From Micromonospora profundi (GTDB taxonomy: Bacteria; Actinomycetota; Actinomycetes; Mycobacteriales; Micromonosporaceae): DNA of 64,000 nt. A program made the position numbers and the translations under genes. The stretch is from assembly GCF_011927785.1 (NCBI RefSeq), contig NZ_JAATJK010000001.1, positions 496,001 through 560,000 on the forward strand, read 5' to 3'. This document shows positions 2,627 through 47,924 of this stretch, piece after piece. The notes below the pieces were generated by a model that saw only the letters and a list, made by a program, of their open reading frames with translations, was not told the DNA's origin and did not search any database. Positions within the stretch are counted from its first letter, which is position 1. Each line of letters starts with the position of its first letter.

Positions 2627-2997
2627 TGGCATCGGTCATGGTGACCAACGATGTGATCGACATTCGGTTCACCGGATGGGAGCGTGTCTGGGTCGGGCGG
2701 GAGTGGTTCGCGCTGCCCCTCACCGCGGTGCGGAAGGTCGCCCTGGCGGACAACCCGCTGCGTCTGGCCCGTGGCGCCCGCCGGGGATATGTGGTGTCCG
2801 GCTTCGCCAAGATCGGAGTGTGGGGCCTGTACGGCGGTCCCCGGCAGCTCGTGGCGGCCCGACGGGCGGAACCAGGGCTGCACCTCGTCCTGGACCGGGC
2901 GGCGGCCGGCGGCGAGTTCGACGAGGTCGTGCTCTCCGGCCCGGCCGCGCCGGGCCTCGTGGAGACGATCACGCGTGCCATGGCGGCTCGCGCGTGA
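2626..2997 (+). CDS. Small conserved-type protein of the exporter operon
   Basis: A 123-residue soluble protein that I cannot name. It has alternating beta-strand-like stretches (ERVWVGREWFALPLTAVRKV and similar) followed by a C-terminal helix, reminiscent of bacterial PH-like folds, but this is only an impression. Its ATG overlaps the regulator's stop (TGATG), and its own stop overlaps the ATPase start (GTGA). It is therefore translated as part of the regulator-exporter unit and may modulate the transporter or the regulator. Confidence 0.75.
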   Translation: MASVMVTNDVIDIRFTGWERVWVGREWFALPLTAVRKVALADNPLRLARGARRGYVVSGFAKIGVWGLYGGPRQLVAARRAEPGLHLVLDRAAAGGEFDEVVLSGPAAPGLVETITRAMAARA

Positions 2998-3914
2998 CCG
3001 GCGACCACCTCGCGATCGAGGTGTCCTGCCTGACGAAGCGCTACGGTGACGTCACTGCCGTTAATGATCTGAGCTTCACCGTGCGACCCGGCGTGATCAC
3101 CGGCTTCCTCGGCCCGAACGGCGCCGGCAAGACCACCACGATGCGCATGATGACCGGGCTGGTGTCGCCGAGCAGTGGCACCGCCACGATCGGCGGGCAG
3201 CCGTACGGTCAACTGGCCCGGCCGTCGCGCACGGTGGGCGCGGTGTTCGACGGCAACGCGTTCCACCCTGGACACACCGCCCGCGACCACCTGCGCGTCT
3301 ACGCCGCGATGGGCGGATACCCGGACAGCCGCGTCGCCGACCTGCTCGACCTGCTCGGCCTCGCCGAGGCTGCGCACCGTCGTACCCGGGGATTCTCCAC
3401 GGGCATGCGGCAGCGGCTCAACCTCGCCACGGCGTTGCTCGGCGACCCCCGCGTCCTGCTGCTGGACGAGCCCGGCAACGGCCTGGACCCGGCAGGGGTG
3501 TCGTGGCTGCGCGGCTTCCTGCGCCAGTTCGCCGACCAGGGCCGCACCGTCCTGATCTCCAGCCATGCGCTCGGCGAGATCCAGCAGCTCGTGGATGACG
3601 TGGTGGTGATCCGGCGCGGCGAACTCGTCGCCGCCGGGCCCTGTTCCCGGCTCGCCGGTCCGCCCGCGGTGCTGATCACCTCACCCGACGCGGACGCGCT
3701 CGTTGCCGTTCTGGCGGCCCACCCGGCCAACGGCGGCACGGCACCGCACGTCGAAGCCGTCGGGCCCGACCGGCTGCGGGTACGCGGGCTGGACGCGCCG
3801 GGCGTCGCCGACCTCGCCGCGGCCCATCATGTTCGGGTGCACGAGCTGGTCGTCGAGACCACCGGCCTCGAAGAACTCTTCCTCGATCTCACCAGGGACA
3901 AGGCGGCCATCTGA
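2994..3914 (+). CDS. ABC transporter ATP-binding protein (ABC-2 exporter)
   Basis: A 306-residue ATPase with Walker A (GPNGAGKT, about residue 40), a signature variant (FSTGMRQRLNLA, about residue 134) and Walker B (VLLLDEPGNGLDP). It belongs to the CcmA/DrrA-like branch that powers export or membrane-lipid handling. The C-terminal about 90 residues are a typical poorly conserved extension. Start GTG at 2994 overlaps the preceding stop, and its stop overlaps the permease ATG, so regulator, small protein, ATPase and permease form one coupled operon. The substrate cannot be predicted. Confidence 0.93.
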   Translation: MTGDHLAIEVSCLTKRYGDVTAVNDLSFTVRPGVITGFLGPNGAGKTTTMRMMTGLVSPSSGTATIGGQPYGQLARPSRTVGAVFDGNAFHPGHTARDHLRVYAAMGGYPDSRVADLLDLLGLAEAAHRRTRGFSTGMRQRLNLATALLGDPRVLLLDEPGNGLDPAGVSWLRGFLRQFADQGRTVLISSHALGEIQQLVDDVVVIRRGELVAAGPCSRLAGPPAVLITSPDADALVAVLAAHPANGGTAPHVEAVGPDRLRVRGLDAPGVADLAAAHHVRVHELVVETTGLEELFLDLTRDKAAI

Positions 3915-24170: not shown

Positions 24171-24485
24171 CACCATATCCCCCAAGCCGCGTGTCCACCT
24201 CGTGCGTCCACCTCGCGTGTCCACCTCGCGTGTCCGCGACTCGAACGATGCCGACCTTCCTCACCGCGCGGCCCCGCCCCTGTGCCTCACTCGCCCGCGC
24301 CTGCTCGTGCCCCGCGCCTGCTCGTGCCCCGCGCCTGCTCGTGCCCCGCGCCTGCTCGTGCCCCGCGCCTGCTCGTGCCCCGCGCCCGCTCCGCTTGCAC
24401 TCGCGCCCGCTCTCGGTCGCGCTCCCGTCCTCGCTCGCGTCCACTCGTCCGCCCCGCCCCGCCCCGCCCCGCCCCACCACGCACG
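24171..24485. other. Non-coding, repeat-rich stretch
   Basis: No supported gene. It holds imperfect GTGTCCACCTCG repeats (about 24190-24235), the 17-bp tandem array at 24296-24380 and a GCCCC run (about 24451-24475). Several reading frames are open only because of the low complexity. Confidence 0.7.
24296..24380. repeat. 17-bp tandem repeat, five exact copies
   Basis: CGCGCCTGCTCGTGCCC is repeated head to tail five times without change (24296, 24313, 24330, 24347, 24364), then decays. Identity between copies suggests recent slippage expansion. Confidence 0.95.
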
Positions 24486-42395: not shown

Positions 42396-43775
42396 ATGCC
42401 AGCAGACCGTATCGACGCCGTCGTCAGCCTCGCCAAGCGCCGAGGCTTCGTCTTCCCCTCCAGCGAGATCTACGGAGGCACCCGATCGGCGTGGGACTAC
42501 GGTCCGCTCGGCGTGGAGCTCAAGGAGAACGTCCGCCGGCAGTGGTGGAAGACGATGGTCCAGCAGCGCGACGACGTGGTCGGCCTCGACTCCGCAGTGA
42601 TCCTGGCCCGCAAGGTGTGGGAGGCGTCCGGCCACATCGCCGAGTTCGTCGACCCGCTCACCGAGTGCCAGTTCTGCCACAAGCGGTTCCGGGCGGACCA
42701 CATCGAGGAGGCGTACGAGGCCAAGCACGGCCACGCGCCGACCTCACTCGCCGAGGTCAACTGCCCCAACTGCGGCAACAAGGGCACCTTCACCGAGCCG
42801 AAGATGTTCAACGGCCTGATGAAGACGTACCTGGGCCCGGTGGAGAGCGACGAGGGCATGCACTACCTGCGCCCCGAGACCGCGCAGGGCATCTTCGTCA
42901 ACTACAAGAACGTCGAGACGGTCGCCCGCAAGAAGCCGCCGTTCGGTATCGCCCAGACCGGCAAGTCGTTCCGCAACGAGATCACCCCGGGCAACTTCAT
43001 CTTCCGTACGCGTGAGTTCGAGCAGATGGAGATGGAGTTCTTCGTCGAGCCGGGCACCGACGAGCAGTGGCACGAGTACTGGCTCCAGGAGCGCTGGAAC
43101 TGGTACCTCGACCTGGGCCTCTCGGCGGACAACCTGCGTCTCTACGAGCACCCCAAGGAGAAGCTCTCCCACTACTCGAAGCGGACCGTCGACATCGAGT
43201 ACCGCTTCCAGTTCGGCGGCACCGAGTTCGCCGAGCTGGAAGGTGTCGCCAACCGCACCGACTTCGACCTCTCCACGCACAGCAAGCACTCCGGCGTCGA
43301 CCTGTCGTACTTCGACCAGACCAAGAGTGAGCGCTGGATGCCGTACGTCATCGAGCCCGCCGCCGGTCTGACCCGGGCCGTGCTCGCCTTCCTGCTGGAG
43401 GCGTACGACGAGGACGAGGCGCCCAACACCAAGGGCGGCGTGGACAAGCGGACCGTGATGCGGTTCGACCCGCGGCTGGCCCCGGTCAAGGTGGCGGTGC
43501 TGCCGCTGTCGCGCAACGAGGCGCTGTCGCCGAAGGCCAAGGACCTCGCCGCGCTGCTGCGCAAGCGTTGGGTGGTGGAGTTCGACGACTCGCAGGCGAT
43601 CGGCCGCCGCTACCGCCGGCAGGACGAGATCGGCACCCCGTTCTGCGTCACCGTCGACTTCGACACGCTCGACGACAACGCCGTGACGGTCCGCAACCGG
43701 GACACCATGACCCAGGAGCGCGTCTCCCTGGACCAGGTGGAGCGCTACCTGATCGAGCGCCTCCCCGGCTGCTGA
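42396..43775 (+). CDS. glyS: Glycyl-tRNA synthetase (alpha2 type)
   Basis: A 459-residue class II aminoacyl-tRNA synthetase of the homodimeric form. It has an N-terminal catalytic region ([19 protein letters not shown]), a four-cysteine zinc insertion (CQFC...CPNC, residues about 90-130), motif 2 ([17 protein letters not shown]) and a C-terminal anticodon-binding domain. ATG with strong RBS GTAGGAGG. It is followed at once by the palindromic repeats bracketing the next gene. Confidence 0.97.
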
Positions 43776-43776
43776 G

Positions 43777-43835
43777 GTGTAAGGAAGGGCCCCTTTCTAA
43801 CGCCTCAGGTATAGAAGGGGCCCCTTCCTAACTCC
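43777..43835. repeat. Left inverted repeat flanking the AbiEi-like gene
   Basis: The first 17 nt (GTGTAAGGAAGGGCCCC, 43777-43793) are the exact reverse complement of 44999-45015. Over 56 nt the two ends are about 82% identical in inverted orientation. The unit itself is also quasi-palindromic (AGAAGGGGCCCCTTCCTAAC, 43813-43832). Confidence 0.92.
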
Positions 43836-43870
43836 GTTGTTCCGCAAGCTGAGCGGAGCGCCGTACTCGA

Positions 43871-44845
43871 TCAGGCCCTCGCATGCTCCGGGCCGGCTGG
43901 ATCGACCCGGACCCGGAGCGTGGCACCGACGCCCTGCCGGGACTCGTACGCATCCTCGACAGTTCGTCGGATGCCGTCCGGATGGCGCCGGAGCTGTGCA
44001 GGCGTGACGTGCAGAACCAGGACACCGTGCCGACTCAGCTCGTTGTGCCGCTCCAACGTCCGAGCCCAGTCGCCCGGGCTGAAGTGGTACTCCTGCGAAT
44101 CGACCTCCAGCGCCACCGCCGAGTCGGTCAGGTACCCGTCCGGCGTCGGCAGCACCGCCCCGTCAAGCGTACGAAGACGGGGATTCCACCGGATCTGCGG
44201 CAGGATCGGGCTGCCCGCCAGGCATTCGCGCAGCTCCGCCTCCGGAGCCGACCGGGTGCCGGCCACGACCTCCGCGTACGCCATCCTGATCAGCGCGGTG
44301 CGACTGCGCCGCGCCCGACGGATCTCCTCGTCCAGCCTGGCGAGGTCGGTGAAACCGCGCTGGACAGACTCGGCGAGGATGGCCCGCACCGGGCGAAGCT
44401 GCCCAAGGTCGCGGGCCGCGTCCACCACCGCCCGCGCCGGCGAGCAGACGGGGTACGGCGCGCTCGACCGCGCCCGGGCGTCCAGGGTCAGGGCTCGCCG
44501 AACAAGGGCGTAGCCCGCCGACCGGCGCCGCGCGTGGTGCGGCACCACCAGGTGTACGTCGGTGTTGCGCGGAATCTGCCGGAACCCGTACCAGGCGAGC
44601 GCGGCCAAGCTGGTGAGCTGCGCCTGCGGCCCGGCGTAGAGCGCTGCGGAGATCCGCCGTTGTTCATCGGTCAGTACGCCCGTGAACAGGGCGTACGTCG
44701 CTGGCAGGACGCGTTGCCACTGGCCGCGCCGGGCCTGGCGGTACAGGTACATGTCGTCGTAGCCAGCGGCGAGCAACTGAGCCCGGGTGGCGATCTGCTG
44801 TTGCCGCTCGACCGTTGCCGTCAGCTCAGGTGGATGTTCACGCAT
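43871..44845 (-). CDS. AbiEi antitoxin N-terminal / DUF559-like protein
   Basis: A 324-residue protein with two parts. Residues about 10-60 look like the AbiEi antitoxin winged helix (RAQLLAAGYDDMYLYRQARR, then WQRVLPATYALF). The C-terminus resembles DUF559/Vsr-like PD-(D/E)XK nucleases (PDGYLTDSAVALEVDSQEYH, then WARTLERHNELSRHGVLVLH). No AbiEii toxin is beside it. Members of this group are frequent, scattered genes of unknown role. ATG 44845 may be leaderless (CAGGCT 6 nt upstream). It is bracketed by 56-58 bp inverted repeats, suggesting mobility. Confidence 0.83.
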   Translation of the reverse strand: MREHPPELTATVERQQQIATRAQLLAAGYDDMYLYRQARRGQWQRVLPATYALFTGVLTDEQRRISAALYAGPQAQLTSLAALAWYGFRQIPRNTDVHLVVPHHARRRSAGYALVRRALTLDARARSSAPYPVCSPARAVVDAARDLGQLRPVRAILAESVQRGFTDLARLDEEIRRARRSRTALIRMAYAEVVAGTRSAPEAELRECLAGSPILPQIRWNPRLRTLDGAVLPTPDGYLTDSAVALEVDSQEYHFSPGDWARTLERHNELSRHGVLVLHVTPAQLRRHPDGIRRTVEDAYESRQGVGATLRVRVDPAGPEHARA

Positions 44846-44957
44846 GACCGCAGCCTGACCGTCGGAACCAGGCCGTGTCCCGCCCGGCCGCGCGGCCTGT
44901 GGAAATCCTGCCGGCTGTGGACAACACCGTCGATCATCGCGCGGTGTGATATGCGTC

Positions 44958-45015
44958 GTGTTAGGAAGGGCCCCTTCCTATGCACTAGGCGTTAAGCAGG
45001 GGCCCTTCCTTACAC
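44958..45015. repeat. Right inverted repeat flanking the AbiEi-like gene
   Basis: Mirror copy of 43777-43835. It is internally palindromic: GTGTTAGGAAGGGCCCC (44958-44974) opposes GGGGCCCTTCCTTACAC (44999-45015) with one mismatch. Its last bases form TACACT, the probable -10 of dusB. Confidence 0.92.
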
Positions 45016-45016
45016 T
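45011..45016 (+). promoter_or_regulatory. -10 element of dusB, formed by the repeat edge
   Basis: TACACT lies 6 nt before GTG 45023 and no RBS is visible, so dusB is probably leaderless. Five of its six bases belong to the inverted repeat. Confidence 0.55.
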
Positions 45017-45022
45017 TGGGCG

Positions 45023-46195
45023 GTGACTGCCTTGACCGCGCCTGTTTTGAGCCCTTTGACTCTGGGGCCGTACCAGGTGTGGCCGCCTGTGGTGCTCGCG
45101 CCGATGGCCGGCATCACGAACGTCGGGTTCCGCCGGCTCTGCCGGGAGCAGGGCGGCGGCATCTACGTCTGCGAGATGATCACCACTCGGGCGCTTGTCG
45201 AGCGCAACCCGAAGACCCTGCGCATGATCACGTTCGGTGACGACGAGAAGCCGCGCAGCCTCCAGCTCTACGGCACCGACCCCGAGATCACCGCAGCCGC
45301 CGTACGGATCGTCGTCGAGCGCAACCTGGCCGATCACATCGACCTGAACTTCGGCTGCCCGGTCCCCAAGGTCACGCGGCGTGGCGGCGGTGCGGCGCTG
45401 CCGTGGCGGCGCCGGCTCTTCGCCCGGCTGGTCAAGGCCGCGGTGGCTGCCGCGTCACCCGCCGGCGTGCCGGTCACCGTCAAGATGCGCAAGGGCATCG
45501 ACGACGACCATCTGACGTACGTCGAAGCAGGGCTCGCAGCCCAGGACGCCGGCGTGGCGGCGGTGGCCCTGCACGGGCGGACGGCCTCGCAGCGCTACTC
45601 GGGCACCGCCGACTGGGACGCGATCGCCACGTTGAAGCAGGCCCTCGACGTGCCGGTGCTCGGCAACGGCGACATCTGGGAGGCCGACGACGCGCTGCGG
45701 ATGGTCGCGCACACCGGCGTCGACGGGGTTGTCATCGGGCGCGGCTGCCTCGGCCGGCCGTGGCTCTTCGCCGACCTGGAGGCCGCCTTCAACGGTCGCC
45801 CCGAACGGCGGCTGCCCAGCCTCGGCGAGGTGGCGGTGACCATGCGCCGGCACGCCGAGTTGCTCGTCGACCAGTTCGTGGCGGGCGCGCGCAACCCCGC
45901 CCGGGGTGAGCGGGACGGCTGCACCGACTTCCGCAAGCACGTCGCCTGGTACCTCAAGGGCTTCCCCGTCGGCGGCGAACTGCGCCGGTCCCTGGCGATG
46001 ATCGAAAGCCTGGCCCAGCTCGACGACCTACTCGGCAAGCTCGACCCGGCCGAGCCGTTCCCGCTTACCGCCCTCGGTCAGCCGCGTGGCCGGACGAACT
46101 CCCCGGGCAAGGTCTTCCTGCCGGACGGCTGGCTGGCCAGCCGGGACGACGACACCGTGCCCGAGGGCGCCGAGATGGACGACTCCGGCGGCTGA
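45023..46195 (+). CDS. dusB: tRNA-dihydrouridine synthase
   Basis: A 390-residue FMN-dependent enzyme that reduces uridines in the tRNA D-loop. The TIM-barrel start is VVLAPMAGITNVGFRRL, and the catalytic Cys lies in LNFGCPVPKVTRRGGGAAL. Later come ALHGRTASQRYSG and the phosphate-binding GVVIGRGCLGRPWLF. Its start is set by the TACACT -10 of the adjacent repeat. The C-terminal 60 residues are an actinobacterial extension. Confidence 0.95.
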   Translation: MTALTAPVLSPLTLGPYQVWPPVVLAPMAGITNVGFRRLCREQGGGIYVCEMITTRALVERNPKTLRMITFGDDEKPRSLQLYGTDPEITAAAVRIVVERNLADHIDLNFGCPVPKVTRRGGGAALPWRRRLFARLVKAAVAAASPAGVPVTVKMRKGIDDDHLTYVEAGLAAQDAGVAAVALHGRTASQRYSGTADWDAIATLKQALDVPVLGNGDIWEADDALRMVAHTGVDGVVIGRGCLGRPWLFADLEAAFNGRPERRLPSLGEVAVTMRRHAELLVDQFVAGARNPARGERDGCTDFRKHVAWYLKGFPVGGELRRSLAMIESLAQLDDLLGKLDPAEPFPLTALGQPRGRTNSPGKVFLPDGWLASRDDDTVPEGAEMDDSGG

Positions 46196-47482: not shown

Positions 47483-47807
47483 GTGGCGGCCGGGCGGGTG
47501 TTCCCGGATACCGGGGGACCGTCGAGCCAGCGGGGCCGCGACCTGTCGTCGGTTACCCCCTGTACAACCACCCGGCCCGGCCCATCATTCCGCCGCCAGA
47601 GTGCCCCCGACCACGCCGCAGCCGAGCCGATACCAGACATAACACCCAGCATTGCCCCGACAGTCGGCCCAGACGGGTGTGATCGACTCGGCTTCATGGA
47701 AACCGGGGTATCCGCGCGACCCGGACACCTCGATATCAAAGGAACCCGAGTCGATCAACCCGCGACTGCCTGAAATGCCTATTCTGGGCGTCTACCGTGC
47801 GCCCGAC

Positions 47808-47924
47808 GAGCGTGCGACGGCCACGCCGAAACCGGACGCCCCGCCCGAGCGTGCGACGGCCACGCCGAAACCGGACGCCCCGTCTGAGGGTGCGGCGGAC
47901 GCGGTGAAACCGGACGCCCCGCCC
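47808..47924. repeat. 39-bp tandem repeat, three copies
   Basis: Copies start at 47808, 47847 and 47886 (GAGCGTGCGACGGCCACGCC at the start of each of the first two). The first two are nearly identical and the third has diverged. It abuts the hexosaminidase stop codon. Confidence 0.93.

Follow-up and report, generated by a model that had tools for sequence, protein, structure and literature searches.

The stretch of DNA analysed here (64 kb of the Micromonospora profundi genome, hereafter the window) contains a single predicted gene that lies between glyS and dusB and is bracketed by two inverted, hairpin-forming repeats. These repeats are referred to as the elements, and the gene with its two elements as the cassette. 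The sequence GTGTAAGGAAGGGCCCC at positions 43777–43793 recurs as an exact inverted copy at 44999–45015, and the similarity extends inward to arms of 56 nucleotides (nt; 43777–43832 and 44960–45015) that match at 82%, as the initial annotation of this locus had described. The arms are the longest inverted repeat reported in the window, and each is part of an element of approximately 58 nt that forms a single long hairpin (−31.1 and −35.7 kcal/mol, z −5.0 to −6.4). The pairing is real and not a chance event, because the 18-nt core of the element has 95 matches at up to three mismatches in the 6.93 Mb genome while its reversed control has none, and because elements stand on both sides of the gene in 37 of the 38 Micromonospora genomes that carry it. 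No target-site duplication is seen when the flanks are read by eye, in agreement with the initial annotation, and an Rfam scan of 43000–46000 at E values up to 1 found no family.

The predicted protein and its surroundings

The only open reading frame between the arms encodes 324 amino acids (Table 1). Its AlphaFold model, predicted from an alignment of 30 sequences with the window gene as the first, matches an AbiEi fold and a nuclease fold of the Vsr/I-Bth0305I type. Pfam scans of the window protein and family members (six scanned) return AbiEi together with weak-to-moderate matches to DUF559 and REase_MTES_1575, and there is no Y1 transposase and no transposase domain among the matches. AbiEi-type regions are known from other systems to bind inverted repeats; the one here is likely to bind the repeat, and the C-terminal domain is likely to cut DNA. 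Full-length orthologues account for 34 of the 37 examined, and the ratio of nonsynonymous to synonymous substitution rates (dN/dS) is 0.11–0.27 across 14 orthologue pairs, indicating purifying selection on the protein. No gene for an AbiEii (DUF1814) toxin is adjacent, the neighbors being glyS and dusB.

Table 1. Coordinates of the features at the glyS–dusB locus, in window positions
Feature	Positions	Strand	Remarks
glyS, upstream neighbor	42396..43775	+	Pfam HGTP_anticodon, tRNA-synt_2b
Left element	43777..43834	+	two GGAAGGGGCCCCTTCC-type palindromes, 31 nt apart, with a short spacer, forming one hairpin; starts 2 nt past the glyS stop
Bracketed gene, 324 amino acids	43871..44845	−	AbiEi-type N-terminal region fused to a Vsr/DUF559-type nuclease domain
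Nuclease domain, residues 196–305	43931..44260	−	E202, D236, E247, D249, and H254 invariant in 34/34 full-length orthologues
AbiEi-like region, residues 1–194	44264..44845	−	winged helix and a second domain
Right element	44958..45015	−	inverted copy of the left element; outer end overlaps the −10-like TACACT ahead of dusB
TACACT, −10-like box	45011..45016	+	6 nt ahead of the dusB GTG; putative promoter element
dusB, downstream neighbor, GTG start	45023..46195	+	Pfam Dus, E 2.8e-88

Elsewhere in the window, tandem repeats occur at 24277–24408 and 47807–47923, with units of 17 bp and 39 bp, respectively.

Gene presence and element copy number in Micromonospora

The comparison covers 121 Micromonospora genomes, i.e., the window's own (G000) and 120 drawn (other G codes denote compared genomes and L codes compared loci). 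DusB was found in all 121, and a genome is called a carrier when it has a homologue at 70% or greater identity to the window gene. There are 38 carriers, and the gene adjoins dusB in each, giving one address for the window's subfamily. As read by eye, elements lie on both sides of the gene in all carriers except G081 (locus L061), which has the dusB-side element only; this locus was inspected apart and is excluded from the 37-locus counts. The inverted-repeat score is at least 44 in 36 of the 37 cassette loci and is 41 in the remaining one, G006.

Among the 83 gene-less genomes, the glyS–dusB interval is shorter than 120 bp in 60 and longer in 12, and glyS was not found in the fetched stretch in 11. 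All 60 short intervals (60 of the 72 readable gene-less sites) contain one strong hairpin and TACACT, which is also present at 37 of 37 cassette loci and is thus kept with or without the cassette. The outer arms of the hairpin are still element-like in G005, G078, and G082 and not obviously so in the remaining 57. In one reading, these sites lost the gene, or had yet to acquire it, and have a single hairpin for that reason; an ordinary terminator of glyS would have an identical appearance. The 12 long intervals were considered as alternative cassettes and rejected, as they contain unrelated genes and no such repeats in their printed ends. The unbracketed genes at these loci (L087, L089, L095, L096, L099, L103, L116, L121, L122, L127, L131, and L134), named from translations and not by search, are MFS-like, alcohol-dehydrogenase-like, TPR-like, and others; the site therefore takes varied insertions.

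An element-specific pattern was counted in the 121 genomes, with the reversed control giving 0 in each, and copies of the window's repeat family total some 3,700. Carriers have 5 to 209 copies in 37 of 38 cases, and the count does not exceed 1 in 75 of the 83 non-carriers. In a tree of 108 genomes built from glyS (12 without glyS in the fetched stretch and G012, with too little glyS, were dropped), gene presence changes 21 times, with at least 12 changes forced by well-supported branches; the tree uses a single gene, itself linked to the cassette. Of 12 independent pairs, 5 to 10 have elements that follow the gene and none has elements that oppose it at thresholds of 1, 3, and 10 copies; a threshold of 20 yields one discordant pair in 2 of 200 pairings. 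These genome comparisons show that the gene and the element are associated across Micromonospora. Three carriers with a broken gene keep their elements (G064, 66; G080, 89; G104, 105), as is expected if the gene is lost first and the elements later.

The proposal of the initial annotation that the repeats and the gene are maintained together is borne out, and neither of the refuting results it named was obtained: none of the 38 loci lacks elements altogether, and the repeats are not equally common where the gene is missing. The initial annotation had also named precise absence of the cassette in some strains as support for mobility; the 60 short intervals have no gene, and each contains one hairpin.

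In G000, the 95 core matches correspond to 57 sites, although a few of those with three mismatches may be chance matches or remnants. Four close neighbor pairs (<2 kb) occur among them versus 0.9 expected if uniform, such that two element sites close together are not remarkable alone. The stretch from 1.35 to 4.2 Mb is depleted, with 4 sites versus 23 expected if uniform, and is perhaps the accessory half of the chromosome.

Four G000 element sites were compared over syntenic stretches (20 kb) in 20 genomes, not all of which could be placed at every site. Elements occupy matching positions at sites 1 and 2 in three carriers, G066, G088, and G093; at site 3, G066 and G088 have them, and those of G103 and G073 are further off. 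Degenerate versions persist at the first or second site in the gene-less G105, G102, G047, and G079, while in other gene-less relatives the place is cleanly empty or is taken by another palindrome family (G039, G119, G075, and others). Partly decayed element copies are also found in G091. Near G000 658819 (L155–L170), gene-less relatives harbor other palindrome families (GATCATGAAGTTATTGCC..., GATCTTGCAGTT...) at the orthologous intergenic site, as if it were a landing place for hairpins.

Related genes and their hairpins

G000 encodes two distant paralogues of the window gene (29–30% identity), which are bracketed by inverted hairpins of other sequence (L032, 48 nt at 94%; L033, 89 nt at 79%). 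The initial annotation had named the same repeats around related genes elsewhere as a further sign of mobility; the related genes are bracketed by hairpins of their own. An inverted-repeat score of at least 44 is reached by 18 of 22 paralogue loci (the two of G000 and the first 20 of 24 weak-match places) versus 14 of 3000 random windows (0.5%). An open-reading-frame control gave 1 high scorer in 59, in a set that included the window, so the scorer may be the gene itself. In a set of 75 named loci, 46 reach this score and 5 of the 29 misses have a flank shorter than 400 nt; this set overlaps the 22 loci (some contigs are identical), and the two counts are not independent.

Among 296 Actinomycetota genomes from 198 genera, members of the gene family were detected in 89 genomes and 68 genera. 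For loci outside the family of Micromonospora (39, hand-picked from the match list; L275, an empty 100-base fetch, was unused), 11 reach a score of 44 against 0 of 1482 mismatched left–right flank pairs, and the hairpin sequences are unlike those of Micromonospora. A family member from another actinobacterial family, L324, has an inverted repeat of approximately 236 bp (1734–1969 and 2935–3173), far longer than the others. In L182, the gene is apparently interrupted and hairpins still bracket it; because of an internal stop, the protein set excludes it. No sensible gene frame could be read in L184 and L185, which have bracketing hairpins and were excluded from further use.

The second and third gene–element pairs were examined with gene classes assigned by hand from identity lists. 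For the L032-type pair, at least 4 element matches are present in 43 of 43 carriers (median 23), and the median is 0 in the 73 non-carriers (p 7e-16); five partial genes count as carriers in the independent-pair and crossed tests. Independent pairs at 4 matches give 6 to 8 concordant and none opposite (median p 0.016). When the window and L032-type genes and elements are crossed, the association is gone (p 0.37 and 0.47). By these comparisons, the gene–element association is specific in two of the three pairs, with the L033-type pair discussed below.

Sorting 48 bracketed loci by their flanks yields 8 groups with common flanks and 20 loci that stand alone. L196-type loci share one address, L255-type loci share one, and the L032-type cassette is found at a minimum of two. 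At the L196-type site, the cassette has one orientation in 10 named genomes and is flipped in 5, with at least two flips needed on the protein tree. The elements are near-palindromic; therefore, a pair could recombine either as inverted repeats, flipping the cassette, or as direct repeats, deleting the gene and leaving one hairpin.

A candidate partnership of enzyme and repeat

Comparison of the sequences shows that the genes are bracketed, that their association with elements is family-specific, that cassettes have flipped at one site, that sites without the gene can have a single hairpin, that some genomes lacking the gene retain degenerate remnants, and that the protein is under purifying selection. 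Copying or maintenance of the elements by the nuclease is what we infer. It is hypothesized, with belief only somewhat outweighing doubt, that the gene and the palindromic elements form a co-evolving system similar to REP/RAYT that is built on an unrelated enzyme and in which the nuclease actively spreads or maintains the elements. By analogy with AbiEi proteins, the AbiEi-like region would bind the inverted-repeat element and guide the Vsr/I-Bth0305I-type nuclease to nick or cut the hairpin or a related site. Repair may then copy the element into other intergenic places or renew decayed copies from intact ones. The gene itself would occupy one or a few addresses, with an element on either side, where recombination within the pair may flip the cassette or delete the gene, leaving one hairpin; both outcomes are seen by comparison. 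Once the gene is lost, the dispersed elements would no longer be renewed and would decay.

Several observations weigh against this hypothesis. G100 has the gene and 0 pattern matches, its flanking elements being divergent, and eight genomes have elements without the gene (G005, 73; G063, 68; G050, 52; G065, 29; G091, 12; G009, 7; G046, 3; G048, 3). At site 4, the element is present in G000, G103, and G073 and absent from G066, G088, and G093, and the carrier G022 has no element in the syntenic 20 kb. In the close genome pairs G120/G061 and G021/G019, 7 sites are common, 1 G120 site is empty in G061, and 2 are unplaceable. Turnover is thus slow, and copying is slow or absent today; the close pairs offered one informative site for insertion polymorphism. 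The comparisons revealed no clean insertion accompanied by a duplicated target. For the L032-type pair, 18 of the 73 non-carriers have at least 4 element matches, and the independent-pair test loses strength when the threshold is raised to 10 (median p 0.07, as many as 2 discordant pairs).

The L033-type pair is weaker, with at least 4 matches in 36 of 47 full or split carriers versus 17 of 74 others and a median p of 0.06 to 0.125 in independent pair tests. Counting full genes only gives 33 of 44 versus 20 of 77, and including partial matches gives 39 of 56 versus 14 of 65 (pair-test median p 0.25 and 0.06, respectively). Its element also tracks the L032-type gene (p 0.003), and thus ancestry may contribute; G093 has 47 L033-type matches without an L033-type gene. 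Outside the family of Micromonospora, the strict score is missed by most loci (11 of 39 pass), and in G241 the cognate element occurs at 5 sites besides the two arms versus 1 control match.

An unlikely explanation, yet one to be taken seriously, is that the protein is a global DNA-binding regulator, terminator, or chromosome-organizing factor, such that the dispersed elements are binding sites kept by selection, the flanking pair is autoregulatory, and no copying takes place. AbiEi-type proteins autoregulate via inverted repeats, according to PMC7319586, and the elements are hairpins, 15 of the 21 G000 sites with fetched context lying no more than 60 nt from the 3′ end of a called gene (crude gene calls). 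The degenerate copies in some gene-less relatives and the mostly orthologous positions of the elements also fit a regulator. However, a pure regulator would have no need for the five predicted nuclease residues that are invariant in the orthologues, and the cassette flips and the distinct palindrome of each subfamily fit recombination better. The conserved nuclease residues, together with the match of the window protein to AbiEi models of a defense library (E 9.6e-17), instead fit a selfish or addictive nuclease, restriction- or toxin-like and possibly anti-phage, whose elements mark self DNA or shield the chromosome and are lost together with the gene. This is improbable given that dozens of intergenic copies would be an odd protection code, that the three broken-gene genomes keep 66–105 elements, and that glyS and dusB, and no AbiEii toxin gene, are the neighbors.

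Inverted termini, a single gene, dispersed MITE-like copies of the termini only, and the two or more addresses of the L032-type cassette recall a classical insertion sequence or transposon, now nearly immobile, with the elements as terminal repeats and the gene as transposase. The constant address of the window's subfamily in 38 of 38 carriers, the lack of a visible target duplication, and the absence of a transposase domain among the Pfam matches make this very improbable. For the same constant address and unseen duplication, and because the gene's own product is a predicted DNA-binding nuclease, the term "non-autonomous mobile cassette" used in the initial annotation is not retained. Its alternative, that two independent copies of a palindromic repeat happen to flank the gene, is right in that a dispersed repeat does so. 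Independence, with the association arising from shared ancestry or from selection on glyS/dusB transcription acting on ordinary terminator-like palindromes, would accommodate the 57 sites and close pairs elsewhere in G000 and the hairpin kept at glyS–dusB in gene-less genomes. It is contradicted by an association that holds in independent pairs, by two of three element families being gene-specific in crossed tests, and by the bracketing of paralogues with unrelated hairpins of their own at frequencies far exceeding the controls, and it is the least credible of these explanations.

The hypothesized co-evolving system can be placed next to several known kinds. In REP/REPIN–RAYT systems (REPtrons), as described in PMC8049555 and PMC3733652, a long-inherited enzyme gene is flanked by palindromic repeats, cognate hairpins are dispersed, and carriers have more repeats. 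The locus studied here likewise combines a gene flanked by a palindromic repeat family with cognate repeats dispersed over the genome (57 sites in G000, and counted in all 121 genomes). RAYTs, in contrast, are HUH tyrosine transposases, and here an AbiEi-type region is joined to a Vsr/I-Bth0305I-type nuclease; thus the system is not a member of REP/RAYT and would only work like one. The ends of the window's two elements, read by eye, are also without the GTAG or CGTC tag that PMC3733652 describes. The AbiEi fold is shared with the antitoxins of AbiE type IV toxin–antitoxin systems (AbiEi, Rv2827c), which differ in lacking the extra nuclease domain and the genome-wide repeats and in having an adjacent AbiEii gene. 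The Vsr-like catalytic domain is shared with the homing endonuclease I-Bth0305I and the mismatch endonuclease Vsr, unlike which this gene is free-standing between two housekeeping genes, fused to AbiEi, and linked to hairpin repeats. Homing endonucleases of the I-Bth0305I type drive the copying of their element by cutting alleles without it; in the genomes compared here, single-hairpin sites do exist. DUF559 and REase_MTES_1575 are domain labels. No report linking AbiEi/DUF559 genes to palindromic repeats was found in PMC open-access text.

Dispersed palindromes are common in bacterial genomes, and few outside the RAYT families are known to have a partner enzyme. The data point to a previously unreported partnership of an enzyme with its own DNA repeat family, in which the repeat family appears to account for, and be accounted for by, a widespread gene family whose only model matches are "AbiEi" and "DUF559." Each genome names an enzyme and a candidate DNA target; the pairing is therefore directly testable. 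If true, the partnership would represent a second, independent origin of a REP-like lifestyle, provide a set of nucleases that naturally differ in the hairpins they recognize, and caution against annotating such genes as toxin–antitoxin or defense components. More tentatively, and with doubt slightly outweighing belief, Actinomycetota may hold RAYT-independent hairpin populations, each run by its own AbiEi–Vsr fusion nuclease that recognizes its cognate palindrome, copies or repairs it across the chromosome, and resides between two copies at an address prone to flips or to collapse into one hairpin, with several subfamilies of differing palindromes per genome. If so, these coexisting subfamilies would account for much of the abundance of GATC(T/A)TG-type palindromes in Micromonosporaceae.
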